Shown one piece after another: positions 31,685 through 45,669 of a stretch of DNA of 64,000 nucleotides (position 1 is its first letter; each line of letters opens with the position of its first letter). The translations under genes were made by a program, and so were the position numbers. The DNA comes from Spirochaetia bacterium (GTDB lineage Bacteria > Spirochaetota > Spirochaetia > Sphaerochaetales > Sphaerochaetaceae): assembly GCA_022482625.1 (NCBI GenBank), contig JAKVOU010000001.1:62001-126000 (forward strand). The letters run 5' to 3'. The notes under the pieces were generated by a model that was not told the DNA's origin, ran no database searches, and saw only the letters and a program-made list of their open reading frames with translations.

Positions 31685-31986
31685 GTCATGGGCTCCTGAA
31701 AAAATATACAGGTATTATCTTCTTTTCGGTAAAACCTATCCAGTAGTTTTTTGAAAAACATGGCAGAAAGGAGTGCTGTTTACTGGTTGTTTTTGTTTTT
31801 TTCTTTGCCATTGGTCTTCCATGTGCTTGAAACGGTAAAATGACAATCGATGAATATATTTATTCAAAATTATCTAGAATATAATTGATATAACCTTAGA
31901 ATAACTATAGAGTCCATAAAACAATAAGTATATAAGTACTATATTTATAGAAATTAAATAAATTTGTATGTGTAAAAAACGATATA

Positions 31987-32022
31987 TCAAACGATTGACA
32001 TATTTTTGGATTGTGCTATACT
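31987..32022 (+). promoter_or_regulatory. Sugar ABC operon promoter with overlapping LacI-type operator
   Basis: TTGACA (31995-32000), a 16-bp spacer, and TATACT (32017-32022) with an upstream TGC that makes it an extended -10. The operator TCAAACGATTGA (31987-31998), a dyad with the central CG typical of LacI-family sites, overlaps the first four bases of the -35. The same arrangement is found at the lacI promoter (36258-36269). Confidence 0.75.
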
Positions 32023-32053
32023 GATTACATCAAAAAATCATTAGGAGGAAAAA

Positions 32054-33355
32054 ATGAAAAAAAACATAGCATTTCTGCTTGTCGCTGCACTGGCGATTAC
32101 AAGTGCCTTCGCCAACGGCAAATCAGAAGAAACTGCTTCTTCAGCGAAAGAACCGGCTGCTTCCATTACGTTTCTGAACAGTAAAGGAGAGGTGCAGGTT
32201 GCCTTGGAGGACCTTGCCAAAGCTTATGAAAAGCAGACAGGCAACCACGTTGAGATCATTGCCTGCGGAACAGGTGAAGTACCATACACCAAGGTCACCA
32301 CCATGTATAATTCCGGCAATGCGCCGACTATTTCCATGCTTGACCAGACTGATGTCTACTCCTTGTACAAGGACTATGCTGTTGATCTCTCGAATGAGAA
32401 ATGGGTAGCACAGACCAATGGTTCGGCTTTGACGATTGATGGCAAAGTCTATGGTTTTCCTTTCTGCATAGAAGGCAGGGGCATCATCTACAATGGTGCG
32501 GCAATTGACAAGACCTTGAAACATCATGTGGACCTTGGCACGATCAACTCATATAGTTCTTTCAAATCCCTGCTTGAACAGCTGCGTGCCGCAGGTATGA
32601 AGAACCCTGTGTTCCTTGCAAAGGAAGACTGGTCCTTGGGCGCCCATCAGCTGGGATTCATCTATGACACCTATGACGGCACGACGGCTGGTTCTGCAAA
32701 GATCATCAACCAGCTTGAGAACGGATTGGATCCGCTTACCTATGATCGTTTCAACGAGTTCATCAAGACTTTTGATCTGCTGAGCCAATACAACTACTAT
32801 CAGGCTGATCCTCTTGGGGCTGATTATGATGAAGGTGCCATGTTGCTTGCAGATGGAACGGTTGCTTTCTGGCCGAATGGCAGCTGGGCTTGGCCAAATC
32901 TCGCGGAAGGCGGTGCAACTACGGACCAGGATTTCGGATTCATTCCGTTCTTCCTTGGCGATGATACTTCTGATTTTGCCAACACCGGGATCGAAGCTGC
33001 CGCTACGAAAGTCCTGATGCTGGACAAGGTCCAGGCCAGTGCCGGACAACAGCAGGCTGCAAAGGATTTCCTCAATTGGCTCGTGTTTGATCCGACTGCA
33101 CAGAAGCTGCTTGTAACGGATGCAAACATCATTCCTGCGGCAAAGAACAATCCTAACAAGCCGCTTGATCCTCTTGGGCAGAATATCGTTACGCGTATGG
33201 CAGAAGGAAAGACTTATCCTTCATGTTTCATTGCTCCTTCAGACCATTGGAGTGTCATCGGAGCTGCCATGCAGAAATACCTGGCAGGAAAGTCATCCAA
33301 GGATGATCTTGCCAAGTCCCTTTCTGCCTACTGGGTTGCACAGAAAACCAAGTAG
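32054..33355 (+). CDS. Sugar ABC transporter substrate-binding protein
   Basis: A 433-residue periplasmic binding protein of the extracellular solute-binding family 1. The signal peptide KKNIAFLLVAALAITSAFA ends before NGKSEE, a mature start common in spirochaetes; no lipobox cysteine is present. Family features include ITFLNSKGEVQVALEDLAKAYE, APTISMLDQTDVYSLY, GKVYGFPFCIEGRGIIYN and AAKDFLNWLVF. First gene of the operon with two permeases. The sugar cannot be read; the LacI regulator is likely to sense it. Confidence 0.9.
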   Translation: MKKNIAFLLVAALAITSAFANGKSEETASSAKEPAASITFLNSKGEVQVALEDLAKAYEKQTGNHVEIIACGTGEVPYTKVTTMYNSGNAPTISMLDQTDVYSLYKDYAVDLSNEKWVAQTNGSALTIDGKVYGFPFCIEGRGIIYNGAAIDKTLKHHVDLGTINSYSSFKSLLEQLRAAGMKNPVFLAKEDWSLGAHQLGFIYDTYDGTTAGSAKIINQLENGLDPLTYDRFNEFIKTFDLLSQYNYYQADPLGADYDEGAMLLADGTVAFWPNGSWAWPNLAEGGATTDQDFGFIPFFLGDDTSDFANTGIEAAATKVLMLDKVQASAGQQQAAKDFLNWLVFDPTAQKLLVTDANIIPAAKNNPNKPLDPLGQNIVTRMAEGKTYPSCFIAPSDHWSVIGAAMQKYLAGKSSKDDLAKSLSAYWVAQKTK

Positions 33356-33422: not shown

Positions 33423-34301
33423 ATGATTAAATCTAGACATGATGATATCAAGGCCGGATTTATGTTTGCCCTTCCCGGCCTGGTTTTCTTTGTGTGTGTT
33501 GTAGTAGTACCGTTCTTCTATGGTTTCTATCTTACGCTGACCGACTGGAACGGCATGAACCCTGTCAAGACGTTCGTAGGGTTTTCAAACTACGTCGTAA
33601 CGCTTCATGATGCTGCTTTCTGGTCTTCGATGTGGTTGACTATAAAGTATGTCTTTTTTTCCGTATTGCTGATCAACGTACTTGCTTTCCTTCTGGCGTA
33701 TCTGCTGACCAACGGTATGAAGGGACAGAATGTTTTCAGGGGCGGTTTCTTTACGCCGAATCTTATCGGTGGTGTCGTGCTTGGTTTCATATGGGAATTC
33801 ATATTCTCCAGGGTTCTGGTTTCCTTCGGCAAGGGTACCGGAATTGCATTGTTTACCTCATCTTGGCTTTCAGATCCTACCAAGGCTTTCTGGGCGTTGG
33901 TAATCGTGACTGTATGGCAGCTGACCGGCTATATGATGCTTATCTACATAGCGGGATTTACAAGCATGAGCCATGATGTCCTTGAGGCAGCTTCCATCGA
34001 CGGAGCTACCGGATGGAAACGCATGAGGGACATCATCATGCCGTTGATGGTTCCTTCGATTGTCATCTGTACGTTCTTTTCATTGAGCCGGGCATTCATG
34101 GTCTATGATATCAACCTGACATTGACGAAAGGCGGCCCGTATGATACGACCCGGTTGGTTGCCATGTATGTCTATGACATGGCGTTCAAATCGAGAAAGT
34201 ATGGTGTGGGGCAGGCCGAAGCTCTGTTCCTGTTCCTGCTTGTTGCTGTGGTGAGTATCATCCAGGTACAGCTAGGCAGGTCAAGGGAGGTGGAAGCATA
34301 A
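33423..34301 (+). CDS. Sugar ABC transporter permease (MalF/UgpA type)
   Basis: A 292-residue inner-membrane protein with six spans. The N-terminal span follows AGFMFALPGLVFFV. The EAA loop, DVLEAASIDGATGWKRMRDIIMPLMVP (about residues 185-210), contacts the ATPase. FFTPNLIGGVVLGFIWEFIF is typical. Its stop overlaps the start of the next permease by one base. Confidence 0.92.
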   Translation: MIKSRHDDIKAGFMFALPGLVFFVCVVVVPFFYGFYLTLTDWNGMNPVKTFVGFSNYVVTLHDAAFWSSMWLTIKYVFFSVLLINVLAFLLAYLLTNGMKGQNVFRGGFFTPNLIGGVVLGFIWEFIFSRVLVSFGKGTGIALFTSSWLSDPTKAFWALVIVTVWQLTGYMMLIYIAGFTSMSHDVLEAASIDGATGWKRMRDIIMPLMVPSIVICTFFSLSRAFMVYDINLTLTKGGPYDTTRLVAMYVYDMAFKSRKYGVGQAEALFLFLLVAVVSIIQVQLGRSREVEA

Positions 34302-35161
34302 TGGCAAAAACCAACCAAGTACGCGGTACAAGAGAGAAAGTCATTGCAACCATTGAATGGATACTTGTGCTTCTCCTTTTCCTGCTTGTGCTTTTTCCGT
34401 TTGTCATGGTGGCAATCAATTCATTGAAGGTGAAGAGGGATATCATCATGAATCCCTTCAGCATCATCACAGCCAGGGGACTTACCTTCAACAACTATGT
34501 CGAAGCATTCGTGAAGATGCATTTCATCCGCAGTTTCTTCAATTCCCTGATGGTGACCGGACTTGCAACCTGCCTGTCCATACTGACTTCCAGTATGCTT
34601 GCTTACTATCTTGTCCGTTATGTGAACAAGTTCACGGCTATAGTGTCTGCTATTCTCATAGCCTCCATGATCATTCCTTTCCAGGCACTGATGATTCCGC
34701 TTGTTTCAATCTATGGAGCTGGGCTGGGCGTCCTCAACCATAGGCTTACCCTGGTGTTCATGCATACGGGATTTGCCTTGGCCATGAGTACGTTCATTTA
34801 CCAAGGATTCATCAAATCTGGGATTCCTCTTGCACTTGAAGAGGCTGCCTTGATCGATGGCTGTTCGAAGTATGGTATCTTTTTCAGGGTCGTGTTCCCG
34901 TTGCTGGGGCCTACGACTGCGACACTGGTCATCCTGAACGTACTTGCTTTCTGGAATGATTATCTGTTGCCTTCCTTGGTCCTGAGCCTGAAGGAATTGC
35001 TGACACTGCCGCTGACGACTTATACCTTCTATGGTACGTACAGTGCGAACTATGGGGTAATTATGGCAGCTCTTGTCCTTACGGTCCTGCCGATTCTCAT
35101 ACTTTATTTTGCACTGCAGTCCAAGATCATTGAGGGTGTCGTATCCGGGGCTGTGAAATAG
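34301..35161 (+). CDS. Sugar ABC transporter permease (MalG/UgpE type)
   Basis: A 286-residue partner permease with six spans. The EAA loop is LALEEAALIDGCSKYGIFFRVVFPLLGP (about residues 175-205). FPFVMVAINSLKVKRDI near the N-terminus and ANYGVIMAALVLTVLPILI at the end are typical. No ATPase gene follows; a shared MsmK/MalK-type ATPase encoded elsewhere is the usual solution. Confidence 0.92.
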   Translation: MAKTNQVRGTREKVIATIEWILVLLLFLLVLFPFVMVAINSLKVKRDIIMNPFSIITARGLTFNNYVEAFVKMHFIRSFFNSLMVTGLATCLSILTSSMLAYYLVRYVNKFTAIVSAILIASMIIPFQALMIPLVSIYGAGLGVLNHRLTLVFMHTGFALAMSTFIYQGFIKSGIPLALEEAALIDGCSKYGIFFRVVFPLLGPTTATLVILNVLAFWNDYLLPSLVLSLKELLTLPLTTYTFYGTYSANYGVIMAALVLTVLPILILYFALQSKIIEGVVSGAVK

Positions 35162-35248: not shown

Positions 35249-36226
35249 TTATGTTGAGCCTCGTTGGATGAGTTTGACCGGCAGTTTGATGTATTTCGGT
35301 GCTACGTTGCCTTCCGTGACACAGCGCAGGCAATAGAAGGTATTGGTTGCCATTTCTTTCAATGGCTGTTGGATCGTCGTGATCGTCGGGGTAATCCAGT
35401 CACAGATGGCAGTATCATCAAAACCGATTACCTTGAGGTCCTCTGGTATGTTCCGTCCCATGAGCCTTGCCGTATCAATTGTCTGGAGTGCCGGGAGATC
35501 CCCTGAAGTGAATATGCCGTCGGTAGTAGGATAGGCTACCAAAGCTTCACGGATTGTCTGCTGATAAGCCCCTGAGTAAAATTGGCTGACGCCCAGTCTT
35601 ATATTATGGCAGGATATGCCTTCTTGTGTGGCAACATCCATGAAACCTTTTGTCCTGTCGTCAGCCGGCATCGGAACGTTTCCGTCTCCGTTGAGGATCA
35701 TCAGTTCCCTGCATTCCCGTTCGATGAGATGATGTGCTGCCATGGCACCGCCGGCATAGTTGTCGCAGACGATGCTGACGGTGCTGCCGTCCAAGGTCCT
35801 TTCTATTGAAATGACGGGAATATCGTTGGATGTAATGCGAGAAAGCGATACGCCGCCGCTGCAGAGAATAATTGCTGCAACACGGTTTTTCCTGCACTGT
35901 TGGATCTGCTCCTCTTCAATGTCGGCAAACTCATTGGAAATCATGACAAGCGTCTGGTAACCTTCCTGATGTGCCTGTTCCTGGAGTAGGGAAACAAGCT
36001 TGGAGAAGTAAGGATGCTGTAGGATAGGGACGATGATACCGACCAGGTTGCTTCGTTTCCTCAGCAGGCCCCGAGCCATTTCATTGGGTTGGTAGTCCAG
36101 TTCCTTGATGGCTTCATTGACTTTTTTCCGTGACTTGTCGCTTATGTAGCCACGGTTGTTCATGATCCTTGAAACCGTGCCGATTGCAAGCCCGCTTTTT
36201 TCTGCTATATCCTTGATTGTTGCCAT
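35249..36226 (-). CDS. LacI-family transcriptional regulator
   Basis: A 325-residue repressor. The N-terminal HTH and hinge are canonical: MATIKDIAEKSGLAIGTVSRIMNNRGYISDKSR (residues 1-33), NEMARGLL at the hinge. The periplasmic-binding-protein-like core contains VGIIVPILQHPYFSKL, AIILCSGG, GFMDVATQEG and VIGFDDTAICDWITPTITTIQQP. It is convergent with the sugar ABC operon and almost certainly controls it. Its ATG lies six bases after its own -10 box, with no Shine-Dalgarno. Confidence 0.93.
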   Translation of the reverse strand: MATIKDIAEKSGLAIGTVSRIMNNRGYISDKSRKKVNEAIKELDYQPNEMARGLLRKRSNLVGIIVPILQHPYFSKLVSLLQEQAHQEGYQTLVMISNEFADIEEEQIQQCRKNRVAAIILCSGGVSLSRITSNDIPVISIERTLDGSTVSIVCDNYAGGAMAAHHLIERECRELMILNGDGNVPMPADDRTKGFMDVATQEGISCHNIRLGVSQFYSGAYQQTIREALVAYPTTDGIFTSGDLPALQTIDTARLMGRNIPEDLKVIGFDDTAICDWITPTITTIQQPLKEMATNTFYCLRCVTEGNVAPKYIKLPVKLIQRGST

Positions 36227-36232
36227 GGATTA

Positions 36233-36269
36233 AGTATAGGCCAATCATTTTGATATGTCAAACGTTTAA
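36233..36269 (-). promoter_or_regulatory. lacI promoter with LacI-type operator, leaderless
   Basis: On the minus strand, TTGACA (36261-36256), an exact 17-bp spacer and TATACT (36238-36233), then six bases and the ATG (36226). The operator read on the minus strand is TTAAACGTTTGA (36269-36258), which overlaps the start of the -35 exactly as in the ABC operon promoter. Autorepression and a leaderless mRNA follow from the geometry. Confidence 0.78.
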
Positions 36270-36398
36270 TATTTTTTATTTTTTCATACATCAGCAATTG
36301 TGTTTGTTTGACAGTATGATATGGTCCTGTATGTTTATGTGAAACTATACAACTTCTAGGCAACTGCTCCAGGCTGAAGACCAGCAATGGAAAGAGAA

Positions 36399-37505
36399 TC
36401 ATTCGGCAACGGAAAAACCTATTGAGACGTATCGTGTCCGTTGGTAGAAGAAGTTGAGCAAGGGGAATCTTCCGTCGTGGTAGAATACTTCAAGACGGGC
36501 AGAAAGGCCTGTAGGACCGGAAGGAAAGACAAGGGCTCCACCGACCGTATAGTCTGTCTCCCATGGATTGTCTGCGTCATATGAAGGAGAACTTGTGAAC
36601 ATATCCTCAATTTGTCCATCTTGGTAGAACTTCATGTCTGCGGCAAGTGTCAAAGACCCGACAGTCGGGATCGGGATAGCATATTCGATGCCTCCCTGCA
36701 TGATCCAATCCTTATAGGACTGGTCATAGTCATTATAACCGTAGAGTACGCCGGAGGAAGGTTTCCTTACCCATGATGGAACAACGATATGTGGACTTAT
36801 CCAAGAACTTTCCTTGGGTAGGCTGGCTGTTGCATATAGCCTCAGTGGTTTTAGTGGTGTCAGGCTCATGCCGATGGCAACATCATTGTCCCTGCAGTAG
36901 TCGACCAGGCTGCCGTCAGCCAGAAGTGTGTCATCATGGTCATATGCATTTTCAATTGTTTCATCACCGTAGTGTCCTGAATAATGCTGCAGTCCTGCCC
37001 TGAAGGTTACCATATCGAACAGTCTGGCATTTGCTCCGATAAAGAAGATTCCGTCATACCCCAGGTTGTCGGCTCCGCCGAAGCCTTGGAATACTGAGTT
37101 GAGGCCGCCTTGCAGGGTCAGTTCACTTTGTATCTTGTTGTCAAAGAGCGAAACCCTGAAGAATCCGATGTTGACTCCGGTCTTGAGCTGCAGATAGAGG
37201 TTTTTGTCCGTGTATGAACCTTCGCCATAGAGATTTTCCTTAGTGAAGGAACCGTCACTTTTTTCCTTATACAGGTACCGTGGTGTTCCTTCTTTTACCT
37301 GAAGGACTTTCAGGCTTGAGGAAGCAGCAAAGGGATCTGCTATAGCCGTAGGAAAGAGGGCATTTGAGGCGACCCAATCGAATCTGAAGTTCCCGTCGAA
37401 CAGGGAGTATGCAGAGGCATTGGCTGCAGACATACCCAGCATGCAGAGCAGGCAGCACAGGGCAAGACGATGTTCCTTGATGTTGTACAGTGATTTCTTT
37501 TTCAT
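36399..37505 (-). CDS. Outer-membrane beta-barrel protein (DUF1207-like), second of a tandem pair
   Basis: A 368-residue exported protein. The signal peptide (LALCCLLCMLGMSAANASA) is followed by a barrel-like pattern of alternating strands. The N-terminal LFPTAIADPFAASSSLKVL and the central FRAGLQHYSGHYGDE resemble DUF1207 proteins (ADPRxPxxS..., HxSSHxGDE). It ends RYVSIGFSVAE, a strand-like C-terminus. It shares the whole layout with the upstream paralogue: IGFFR, FQGFGGADNLGYDGIFFIGA, NPWETDYTVGG, FYHDGRFPLLNFFYQRTRYVS. GAGG precedes the start, 8 bases after the paralogue's stop. Function unknown. Confidence 0.65.
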   Translation of the reverse strand: MKKKSLYNIKEHRLALCCLLCMLGMSAANASAYSLFDGNFRFDWVASNALFPTAIADPFAASSSLKVLQVKEGTPRYLYKEKSDGSFTKENLYGEGSYTDKNLYLQLKTGVNIGFFRVSLFDNKIQSELTLQGGLNSVFQGFGGADNLGYDGIFFIGANARLFDMVTFRAGLQHYSGHYGDETIENAYDHDDTLLADGSLVDYCRDNDVAIGMSLTPLKPLRLYATASLPKESSWISPHIVVPSWVRKPSSGVLYGYNDYDQSYKDWIMQGGIEYAIPIPTVGSLTLAADMKFYQDGQIEDMFTSSPSYDADNPWETDYTVGGALVFPSGPTGLSARLEVFYHDGRFPLLNFFYQRTRYVSIGFSVAE

Positions 37506-37513
37506 AGGTTCCT

Positions 37514-38617
37514 CTATCCATTTATGGCAATGCCGAATACGATGTATCGGCTTCGTTGGAAGAAATAGTTGAGAAGGGGAAAGCGACCGTCATGGTAGTA
37601 TGCTTCAAGGCGGACTTTCCTGCCTAGCTGTGTCTGGTTGAATTCAAAGCCACCGCCGATGGTATATTCCTGTTCCCATGGATTGCCCGGGCTGTAGCTG
37701 CCGCCTGTCGTTGCCTGGGTCTGCCCATCCTGATGGAACTTGACGTCACAGGCCAGAAAGACGGATCCCAGGGACGAAACCGGGAAACGCTGCTCTGCTC
37801 CAAGTTCAATGATCCAAGCCCTGTATGAGCTGTCATAGGGAATTGCACTCAAGCCTTCTCCTTCTGTGATATTTGTGAACTGTGACTCAAAATTGCCTGG
37901 CTTGAGCACATAGGATGGGACGAAAAGGCCGGGGCGTATCCATGAGTGCTGCATCGGAAGATCTGCCATTGCATAGAACCTGGTCCACATGGTCGGTTCA
38001 AATGACACGGCTGCCTGCAAAGTATTTCCTCTGGTATATTCCAATAACTTGTCATAGGTAGCATCGGGATTATATGTTTCCAGATCCTCAAGGATCTCAT
38101 CGCCCCAATGTCCCGAAAAATGATGGAACCCAGCACGGAAGGCCAGTTTTCTGTACAACTTTACGGTAATGCCTGCTCCATACATGCCGTCAAATCCCAT
38201 GCAGTCTACTGAGCCAAAGCCTTCGAAGACCGTGTTGATGCCGCCGCGTAGGTAACCTTCCATCTGGAATGGGCCGGAAGTAAAACGGAGAAATCCGATG
38301 TTGACGGCGCTTTTCATCTGCCAATATGCAGTATGGTCCGGATCATCATCTTCAAAGGCAATCCTTTCATATGAACCATCGTTGGAAACAAATACATCCC
38401 GTGGTGCACTTGTATCGTCTGTGACGACAAGACGTCTGAAACTTGATGAATCGGAAAAAGGGTCCGCCAACGGTTCTCGGAAGAGTGGATTTACAGGAAC
38501 CGGTTCGAATATGACATTTCCACCGAAAAGCTTATATGAAGCCGAGGCAGATACCGACTGCATGGCTATGCAGAAAAATGTGATAGCAATAAGTAGTCGC
38601 ATCTGAAATTGTTTCAT
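37514..38617 (-). CDS. Outer-membrane beta-barrel protein (DUF1207-like), first of a tandem pair
   Basis: Paralogue of the gene at 36399 with the same order of segments: signal peptide (MRLLIAITFFCIAMQSVSASA), LFREPLADPFSDSSSF, IGFLRF, FEGFGSVDCMGFDGMYGAG, FRAGFHHFSGHWGDE, NPWEQEYTIGGGFEF, AYYHDGRFPLLNYFFQRSRYI. Length is 367 from the ATG at 38617; an in-frame ATG at 38632 abuts a GAAGG too closely to be a good start. First gene of a two-gene operon, possibly controlled through the inverted repeat at 38675-38704. Confidence 0.65.
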   Translation of the reverse strand: MKQFQMRLLIAITFFCIAMQSVSASASYKLFGGNVIFEPVPVNPLFREPLADPFSDSSSFRRLVVTDDTSAPRDVFVSNDGSYERIAFEDDDPDHTAYWQMKSAVNIGFLRFTSGPFQMEGYLRGGINTVFEGFGSVDCMGFDGMYGAGITVKLYRKLAFRAGFHHFSGHWGDEILEDLETYNPDATYDKLLEYTRGNTLQAAVSFEPTMWTRFYAMADLPMQHSWIRPGLFVPSYVLKPGNFESQFTNITEGEGLSAIPYDSSYRAWIIELGAEQRFPVSSLGSVFLACDVKFHQDGQTQATTGGSYSPGNPWEQEYTIGGGFEFNQTQLGRKVRLEAYYHDGRFPLLNYFFQRSRYIVFGIAING

Positions 38618-38674
38618 CTTATTGTTGTGCATCCTTCTAATAGAATATCTTTATATTATACTTTGTCAATATAA

Positions 38675-43720: not shown

Positions 43721-43785
43721 AATAGACAAAAATATATAAAAGTGTCAGAATAAAAACAATGGCCATGACTGGCAAGGAGACAAAT

Positions 43786-45669
43786 ATGCAGACCATAGCA
43801 CAGATGTTCCATGCAAACGTACAGCGATATCCTGATCTGGATGTCATCTGGGAAAGAAAATCCGGCAAAGGTGCTTTTGTGCCGGTTACTTACCTTGCTT
43901 TTGAAAAAAAGGTGCTGGCTTTGGCGACAGGACTTAGGCAGTTGGGTATCAGAAGAGGTGACATGGTTGCTATCCTTGCTGACAACAGTTCAAAATGGTT
44001 GCTCAGTGACCTTGCGCTCCAGTATTTGGGAGCAACGGATGTACCTCGGGGTACGGATGCGACGGACCAGGAAATCCTGCAGATACTTTCGACCTGTGAG
44101 GCTCACACCTGTTTCGCTGCTGACCAGGCAATGCTTGCAAGGCTGGAAAAACTCAAGGAACAGCTTCCTGCCTTGCAGAGGGTCATCATACTTCAGCAGA
44201 AAGATACTTCAGTTCCTTGTAATTCTTTTGAAGTGATTGACTTCAACAGCTTGCTTGTCGGTATTCCGTCCAGCTCTTCAGAGACAGAAATCTTGGCTGG
44301 ACTGGCTGATGGGCAAGGCGAGGATATCGCTACGGTCATCTTTACCAGCGGTACGACAGGACTGTGCAAGGGAGTCATGCTGACCCATGGCAATTTCATG
44401 TACCAGTTCAGGCATCTTCAGCAGATTGTCGACGGGGCATTCCAACCGGGACAGCGTTGGCTGTCCGTACTGCCCATCTGGCATATCTTTGAGCGTATGG
44501 CAACCTATGTTGCCTTGTCCTATGGGCAGTGCATTGCTTACTCCAAGCCGCTGGGTAGCCGGCTTATGCTTGATTTCAAGCAGGTAGAACCTCATTGGTT
44601 TGCATCGGTGCCAAGAATATGGGAGATGATTTACAAGGGTGTCTGGAATAAAGTCGAACGTAGCAATGAGGTTGAGAAGGCTATCGGCAGGTTTTCTTTC
44701 GCAGTGGGTACTGCCTATCGCGATAATCTCAACATTTTCAATGATAGTTTTCCTGATTTTGGTTCAGGTCGGAAGAAAAGCCGTACCAAGGCCGCAGTGA
44801 AGGTTGCTTTGCTTTTTCCTTTTGCAAAGTTCGCTGATGCTGCTGTATTTTCCAAGTTGAGGAAAAATTTCGGTCCCAATCTGATCGCAGGGGTTTCCGG
44901 AGGCGGTTCCCTTCCTGCCATGATCGACCGGTTCTTTGATGCCTGTGGCATCAGGCTGCTGGATGGCTATGGGATGACCGAGACCGGTCCGATTATTTCC
45001 GTACGCAGGCTCCATGGGGGCAGGCTCGGTGCCATGTCGGTTCTTGACGGTACCCGGGTAAGGATACTGAAAGACGATGGCAGCGAAGCTTCCATCGGGG
45101 AGAAGGGCGTGCTGTGGGTCAATGGACCTCAGGTGATGAAAGGCTATTTCAAGATGGAAGGCGAAACGAAGAAGGTCTTCGATAAAGAAGGATTCCTCAA
45201 TACCGGGGACCTGGTACGGAAGACTGTCAGCGGTGAGATTGTCATAGCAGGACGTGCAAAGGATACCATCGTGCTTGCCGGTGGAGAAAACCTTGAACCT
45301 GTGCCGATAGAAGCAAAGATACTCGAAGATGATGTGTTTGCCAATGCTGTGGTAATCGGGCAGGACAGGAAATTCCTTTCGGCCCTTGTTGTCCTGGATC
45401 CTGCGAATATAAAAGAGTATCTGGCTTCTGCCAATCTGCCGACCATAGGGACTCCGAATTATTTCCAGGAGCTACGGTCCCTGATACTCAGAAGGATAGA
45501 AGACAAGGTCAACATCCGTGCTGGATTCAAGAAATATGAGCAGATTGCCAAGGTGTATATATTGGATAAGCCATTTGAAGTCGGAAAAGAACTGAGCGCA
45601 AAACATGAACTCAAGCGCTTTGCCATTGAAAAACTATATCAGAAGGAGATCAATGCACTCTATACATAA
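43786..45669 (+). CDS. Long-chain acyl-CoA synthetase (FACL type)
   Basis: A 627-residue AMP-forming ligase, the long eukaryote-like form. Visible are VIFTSGTTGLCKGVMLTHGN, LPIWHIFERMATYVALSYG, WFASVPRIWEMIYKGV, GYGMTETGPIIS, FLNTGDLV and AGRAKDTIVLAGGENLEP, with the conserved Lys region near ELSAKHELKRFAI. The start at 43786 has AAGGAG six bases upstream. First gene of a plus-strand run that ends with DAHP synthase and DJ-1. Confidence 0.9.
   Translation: MQTIAQMFHANVQRYPDLDVIWERKSGKGAFVPVTYLAFEKKVLALATGLRQLGIRRGDMVAILADNSSKWLLSDLALQYLGATDVPRGTDATDQEILQILSTCEAHTCFAADQAMLARLEKLKEQLPALQRVIILQQKDTSVPCNSFEVIDFNSLLVGIPSSSSETEILAGLADGQGEDIATVIFTSGTTGLCKGVMLTHGNFMYQFRHLQQIVDGAFQPGQRWLSVLPIWHIFERMATYVALSYGQCIAYSKPLGSRLMLDFKQVEPHWFASVPRIWEMIYKGVWNKVERSNEVEKAIGRFSFAVGTAYRDNLNIFNDSFPDFGSGRKKSRTKAAVKVALLFPFAKFADAAVFSKLRKNFGPNLIAGVSGGGSLPAMIDRFFDACGIRLLDGYGMTETGPIISVRRLHGGRLGAMSVLDGTRVRILKDDGSEASIGEKGVLWVNGPQVMKGYFKMEGETKKVFDKEGFLNTGDLVRKTVSGEIVIAGRAKDTIVLAGGENLEPVPIEAKILEDDVFANAVVIGQDRKFLSALVVLDPANIKEYLASANLPTIGTPNYFQELRSLILRRIEDKVNIRAGFKKYEQIAKVYILDKPFEVGKELSAKHELKRFAIEKLYQKEINALYT

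Follow-up and report, generated by a model that had tools for sequence, protein, structure and literature searches.

The lacI Locus and the Adjacent Transporter Operon

The window analysed here is a stretch of 64,000 nucleotides from a Spirochaetia bacterium of the Sphaerochaetaceae, with positions counted from its first letter. It carries an ABC-transporter operon and, next to it on the opposite strand, the gene of a LacI-family repressor (lacI). The features are the following.

31982 to 32003: operator-like palindrome of the transporter operon, ATATATCAAACGATTGACATAT, 9 of 11 pairs, containing the operon's -35 (from the sequence)
31995 to 32022, plus strand: twin promoter of the transporter operon, TTGACA-16-TATACT (from the sequence)
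32029 to 32053, plus strand: predicted leader of 25 nt, in which AGGAGG occupies 32043-32048 (from the sequence, counted from a putative start point)
32054 to 33355, plus strand: sugar-type ABC solute-binding protein (SBP) gene (Pfam SBP_bac_8)
33423 to 34301, plus strand: ABC permease 1 (NCBIfam GlcT/UgpA/MalF-like, below curated cut-offs)
34301 to 35161, plus strand: ABC permease 2 (NCBIfam GlcU/MalG/UgpE-like, below curated cut-offs)
35249 to 36226, minus strand: lacI, LacI-family repressor gene, 325 aa, ATG start (Pfam domains; a TAA closes the frame two codons upstream)
36226, minus strand: predicted lacI transcription start on the A of the ATG (six bases after the -10; backed by a genome-wide peak at 6-7 bp)
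36233 to 36238, minus strand: lacI -10 hexamer TATACT, spacer 17 (from the sequence)
36256 to 36261, minus strand: lacI -35 hexamer TTGACA (from the sequence)
36253 to 36274: operator-like palindrome AAATATTAAACGTTTGACATAT (minus strand), 22 bp, 8 of 11 pairs, containing the lacI -35 (from the sequence)

A Pfam search of the lacI product returned PF00356 at residues 3-48 (62.7 bits, cut-off 27) and PF13377 at residues 164-325 (81.5 bits, cut-off 26.5), i.e., the LacI/GalR set of an N-terminal helix-turn-helix and a periplasmic-binding-protein-like domain. The ATG occupies 36226-36224 of the minus strand, and an in-frame TAA lies just 5' of it, at 36232-36230. The start codon is firm because the LacI domain begins at residue 3 and the TAA closes the frame, and a wrong start codon was ruled out on the same two grounds. 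The original prediction had called the LacI-family start unambiguous and the six-base gap to the ATG firm, and both statements hold; the six bases between TATACT and ATG are TAATCC. No Shine-Dalgarno (SD) match of three or more letters was found 18-4 nt upstream of lacI (row L059), and the first 50 nt of the message show no unusual folding (z 0.14).

Upstream of lacI on the minus strand lie two neighbouring genes, at 36399-37505 and 37514-38632, whose products are related to each other, with 38.6% identity across 378 positions. Both products have signal-peptide-like starts by eye, and neither Pfam nor NCBIfam yielded a match for them at E 0.001.

The lacI Promoter

The promoter had been described as TTGACA-N17-TATACT, one base off full consensus and six bases before the ATG. 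This is exact: 11 of the 12 consensus bases are present, the top score among the promoter-like sites found between 33 and 40 kb, which number 17 against a shuffle mean of 10.4 (sd 3.5). In the whole genome (3,467,518 bases), the pattern TTGACA-N16-18-TATA[AC]T occurs at 25 sites and its reversed control at three, by which pure chance was ruled out for the lacI promoter. These near-consensus promoters are as a rule leadered, and lacI's is the only one with the ATG of a frame of at least 60 codons at 6-7 bp. Other start codons at 6 bp among the 25 are a TTG (L089, with an SD-led ATG farther on) and a GTG (L100). Four sites combine the near-consensus pattern with an ATG at 4-9 bp, and a long gene was found from that ATG at lacI only.

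A -10 hexamer that ends six bases before an ATG would, by the general rules of promoters, place +1 on the A. A start point at the ATG, as first proposed, is the best-supported reading, given the class of genes in this genome, mostly devoid of SD, that have a -10 at 6-7 bp. Leaderless transcription of lacI is well supported by these sequence features, and we infer the exact 5' end from the position of the hexamer.

A Leaderless-Type Gene Class in the Genome

The sample, 464 kb in all, was made up of the window and 20 stretches of 20 kb each. Genes were called by codon usage, blind to upstream signals, and promoter-like sites with at least 9 of 12 consensus bases were plotted relative to the start codon. 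For 287 called genes, eight sites fall at 6 bp and five at 7 bp before the start, whereas the same sites average 0.75 per position at 15-110 bp. Promoters at 6-7 bp are found in 13 of 286 tested genes, whereas 200 dinucleotide shuffles averaged 0.86 and never exceeded 5; the spacer is 17 in 12 of these 13 genes, and the SD match is at most three letters long in 11, versus 72 of the 273 others (Fisher p 3e-5). Taken together, the excess over shuffles, the spacer, and the mostly absent SD show that leaderless-type genes form a genuine class in this genome, making up about 4.5% of the genes sampled. The highest scores among its strict members, 11 of 12, belong to lacI and a TetR-type gene. For Spirochaetes, leaderless genes have been reported in 6 of 18 genomes, averaging 3.9% and being commoner in transcription genes (PMC3160421).

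Two further strict leaderless-type genes lie in the window, one at 43759-45669 on the plus strand (TAGACA-17-CAGAAT at 7 bp) and one at 9718-8303 on the minus strand (TTCACA-17-TACAGT at 6 bp). They are perhaps the other two leaderless candidates of the original prediction.

Within the LacI family of this genome, 8 of 45 genes have a promoter of at least 9/12 located 6-7 bp before a plausible ATG, where about 0.57 would be expected from other positions; two of the genes compared, L049 and L050, are identical in their upstream sequence. The corresponding counts are 4 of 17 for TetR and 1 of 16 for GntR, two families picked after regulators had turned up in the sample list, and 0 of 30 for solute-binding proteins, taken as a leadered control (17 of 18 TetR hits and 30 of 45 SBP hits were used). 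Candidate starts followed different rules, namely the nearest ATG plus 6 codons upstream for LacI, and 25, 30, and 70 codons for GntR, TetR, and SBP, respectively. In approximate comparisons, the LacI proportion exceeds that of the sample (11 of 284, a denominator that drops two LacI/TetR hits only and not every LacI/TetR gene; one-sided p 0.0016) and that of the solute-binding proteins (p 0.019). The excess does not recur in six relatives, where 2 of 82 LacI genes have such a promoter at 6-7 bp and 1.3 would be expected. That set holds 85 analysed sequences, 82 of them with a usable start; it includes a sample of 5 of the 26 family hits from G003 and 5 of the 35 from G060, and a G001 hit that scored below the cut-off was dropped.

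L049 and L050 (C1:2709959 and C1:2812599) are LacI-family genes about 103 kb apart with 110 identical bases upstream and equal scores, which suggests a recent duplication. Two TetR-type genes, L250 and L253 (C1:1284679 and C1:1397326), combine leaderless-type promoters with near-perfect palindromes located between or over -35 and -10, the arms of which read, by eye, TATACCG/CGGTATA and CCGACCG/CGGTCGG. This looks like autoregulation in the style predicted for lacI.

Operator-Like Palindromes and the Twin Promoter

Both the lacI and the transporter -35 hexamers carry CG-centred palindromes, of 8 and 9 of 11 pairs, that are putative LacI binding sites, and the TTGACA of lacI is the right half of its own palindrome. 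Of the window's 2510 CG centres, 9 reach eight or more pairs. The 12-bp core of the operator, taken alone, is not enriched in the window (4 strand hits where chance predicts 5.6, and 5 where it predicts 6.1), and the operator argument therefore rests on position and conservation. Genome-wide, AAACGNTTGACA occurs five times, three of them at promoters, versus three times for the reversed pattern.

Since the palindrome covers the lacI -35, repression of lacI by its own product is predicted. A putative operator overlapping the repressor's own promoter, with a near-identical one on the target operon, is the arrangement of acuR-type control (see below), recognised here from sequence only. Neither this operator nor the twin promoter figured in the original prediction, which had called the lacI promoter strong. 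The promoter matches consensus at 11/12, but the TTGACA also belongs to an operator-like palindrome, so that the match is not purely a matter of promoter strength, and the strength would describe the derepressed state only.

The lacI and SBP-operon promoters, 4.2 kb apart and both counted among the genome's 25 strong promoters, share a near-identical operator/-35/-10 unit; a leader with AGGAGG is predicted for the SBP message and none for lacI. Their local alignment is the best of the 300 pairs among the 25 promoters, with a score of 22, the next pairs scoring 21. Against 5000 first-order resamples of one side (mean 9.7), the best resample scored 22 and the observed pair 21 in that run. A local duplication as the origin of the twins is not proven, because their score is barely above those of the next pairs and within the resample maximum.

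The closest LacI paralogue in the genome (L293:7034-8568, C1:1507034-1508568) is 38% identical to lacI. Two similar palindromes lie near it, one of them over a TTGACA-17-TATACT promoter, and the two regulators may therefore share operators.

Conservation in Relatives

In the congener G003, the SBP is 60% identical, the permeases 73% and 73%, and LacI 47%. Its genes are ordered binding protein-permease-permease-lacI on one strand, with lacI last and co-oriented; one copy of the palindrome precedes the binding-protein gene and another lies immediately beyond lacI. This co-oriented order recurs in the two Paenibacillus loci searched, with palindromes of 9-11 of 11 pairs. At the corresponding operon in G003 and Paenibacillus, a palindrome of up to 11 of 11 pairs holds TTGACA in its half-site, and TTGACATAT is the half-site in other genera. 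In two Lachnospiraceae loci, lacI comes first, in the orientation of the other genes; the palindromes are weaker there, three Lachnospiraceae sites having 6-8 of 11 pairs. The leaderless start is not conserved: the lacI genes of G003, Lachnospiraceae, and Paenibacillus, and the other related lacI genes inspected, are SD-led.

In the present genome, lacI holds the same place as in the G003 order, but in the opposite orientation. The simplest inference from these gene orders is that lacI was inverted, lost the message of the operon, and would now be driven by an operator-bearing promoter placed directly against its ATG.

Proposed Regulation and Alternatives

The features read directly in the DNA, i.e., the promoter spacing, the firm start, the lack of SD, the leaderless class, the twin promoter, and the conserved palindrome, point to the following model, which we consider probable. 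The 5' end of the lacI mRNA would coincide with the A of the ATG or fall no more than one or two bases from it, yielding a leaderless message. The repressor would bind the 22-bp palindrome over its own -35 and the near-identical palindrome over the -35 of the transporter operon, repressing both promoters by covering these hexamers. Upon binding of a sugar to the repressor, both promoters would open together. Transcription of repressor and transporter would thus be coupled, and the difference in protein output would be set mainly by translation, which would begin at a leaderless AUG for the repressor but follow an AGGAGG-bearing leader of 25 nt for the binding protein.

The translational part of this model is where a competing reading fares best. 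It is a distinct possibility, though short of an even one, that the mRNA starts at the lacI ATG but that its leaderless translation is not weak, the repressor level being set by autoregulation alone. Leaderless starts are also found on housekeeping-type genes (lysyl-tRNA synthetase-like and RNase H-like frames, named from their translations rather than by family search), and lineages rich in leaderless genes can translate them well. Against this stands acuR, whose translation amounts to ~7.5% of that of an SD-led partner gene in its operon (PMC3017554); the comparison is loose because the acuR host is a proteobacterium. By this precedent, it is plausible, as originally suggested, that inefficient translation of a leaderless message holds repressor levels down.

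The start point itself is less open to challenge. A second promoter-like site, TTCACA-16-TATCAT (36343-36316, 10 of 12), would leave lacI a leader of ~83 nt. The next gene upstream has the same orientation and its stop at 36399, and since the interval from there to lacI shows no terminator-like site, read-through may occur. It is nevertheless unlikely that the main transcription comes from either source, giving a leadered, SD-less message with the near-consensus site as a secondary start: the near-consensus site has the higher score, bears the operator, and agrees with the leaderless class of the genome, whereas a score such as that of the farther site is common in this AT-rich stretch, where 17 sites were found and shuffles give 10.4. 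It is highly improbable that the lacI TTGACA is an operator half-site only, with an accidental promoter, despite the half-site role of TTGACATAT in other genera, since TATACT stands at exactly 17 bp at lacI and at 16 bp in the twin, and two Paenibacillus SBP operons keep the TTGACA of the palindrome followed by TATGAT at 18 bp (spacing read by eye); a half-site that also serves as -35 makes a choice between operator and promoter unnecessary.

Beyond the leaderless, operator-coupled model, a wider proposal can be offered only tentatively, and it is doubtful in its full extent. The lineage might prefer leaderless initiation for small local repressors, the repressor gene copying the operator-promoter of its target without the leader. 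One sensor would then open both promoters, and the leader alone would set the repressor-to-transporter ratio. The flipping of lacI out of the operon with its operator-promoter kept would have created the leaderless gene.

Comparison with Known Systems

Leaderless repressors are already known, among them acuR, lambda cI, Tn1721 tetR, CvkR, and the LacI-GalR member malR. The closest precedent is acuR of the Rhodobacter sphaeroides acuR-acuI-dddL operon, for which a start at the AUG, an operator over the promoter, and the low translation quoted above have been described (PMC3017554). Like lacI, it is a local repressor with a message from the AUG (predicted for lacI), an operator overlapping the promoter, control common to repressor and target, and SD on the targets. 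In contrast with lacI, acuR belongs to the TetR family and shares one mRNA with its targets; moreover, its start point, operator, and low translation were established by experiment, whereas the features of lacI are predicted. The malR gene of Streptomyces coelicolor, listed as leaderless in Table 1 of PMC3160421, encodes a LacI-GalR sugar regulator, and hence matches lacI in family and in its predicted leaderless message, but it starts with GTG and belongs to an actinobacterium, where leaderless genes are common. Lambda cI and Tn1721 tetR also produce their repressors from leaderless mRNAs (PMC3017554, PMC9938897), as predicted for lacI, although they are phage and transposon genes of other families. 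Among spirochaetes, dRNA-seq of Leptospira interrogans has revealed leaderless mRNAs for 184 genes at 30 °C and 170 at 37 °C (PMC5243855). The likeness lies in the many messages beginning at the start codon, here predicted; Leptospira interrogans is of a different order, and E. coli-like promoters were not derivable there according to the same report.

In open-licence literature, a search for "leaderless" with "Sphaerochaeta" found nothing, and "leaderless" with "LacI family" gave nothing related by title or abstract among the matches listed. The best reading is that lacI is the LacI-family equivalent of Rhodobacter acuR, a clean case of a gene type already known and not a new mechanism, set in a matched pair with the SBP gene that is unusually clean; a caution is that a near-consensus -35 may owe its letters to an operator. 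If the reading is true, lacI and the SBP gene would form a natural matched pair, with nearly the same operator/-35/-10 unit followed by a leaderless start in one and an AGGAGG leader in the other. The cost of leaderless initiation would therefore be directly measurable within one genome, and acuR-type control would extend to LacI repressors in a spirochaete-like lineage.
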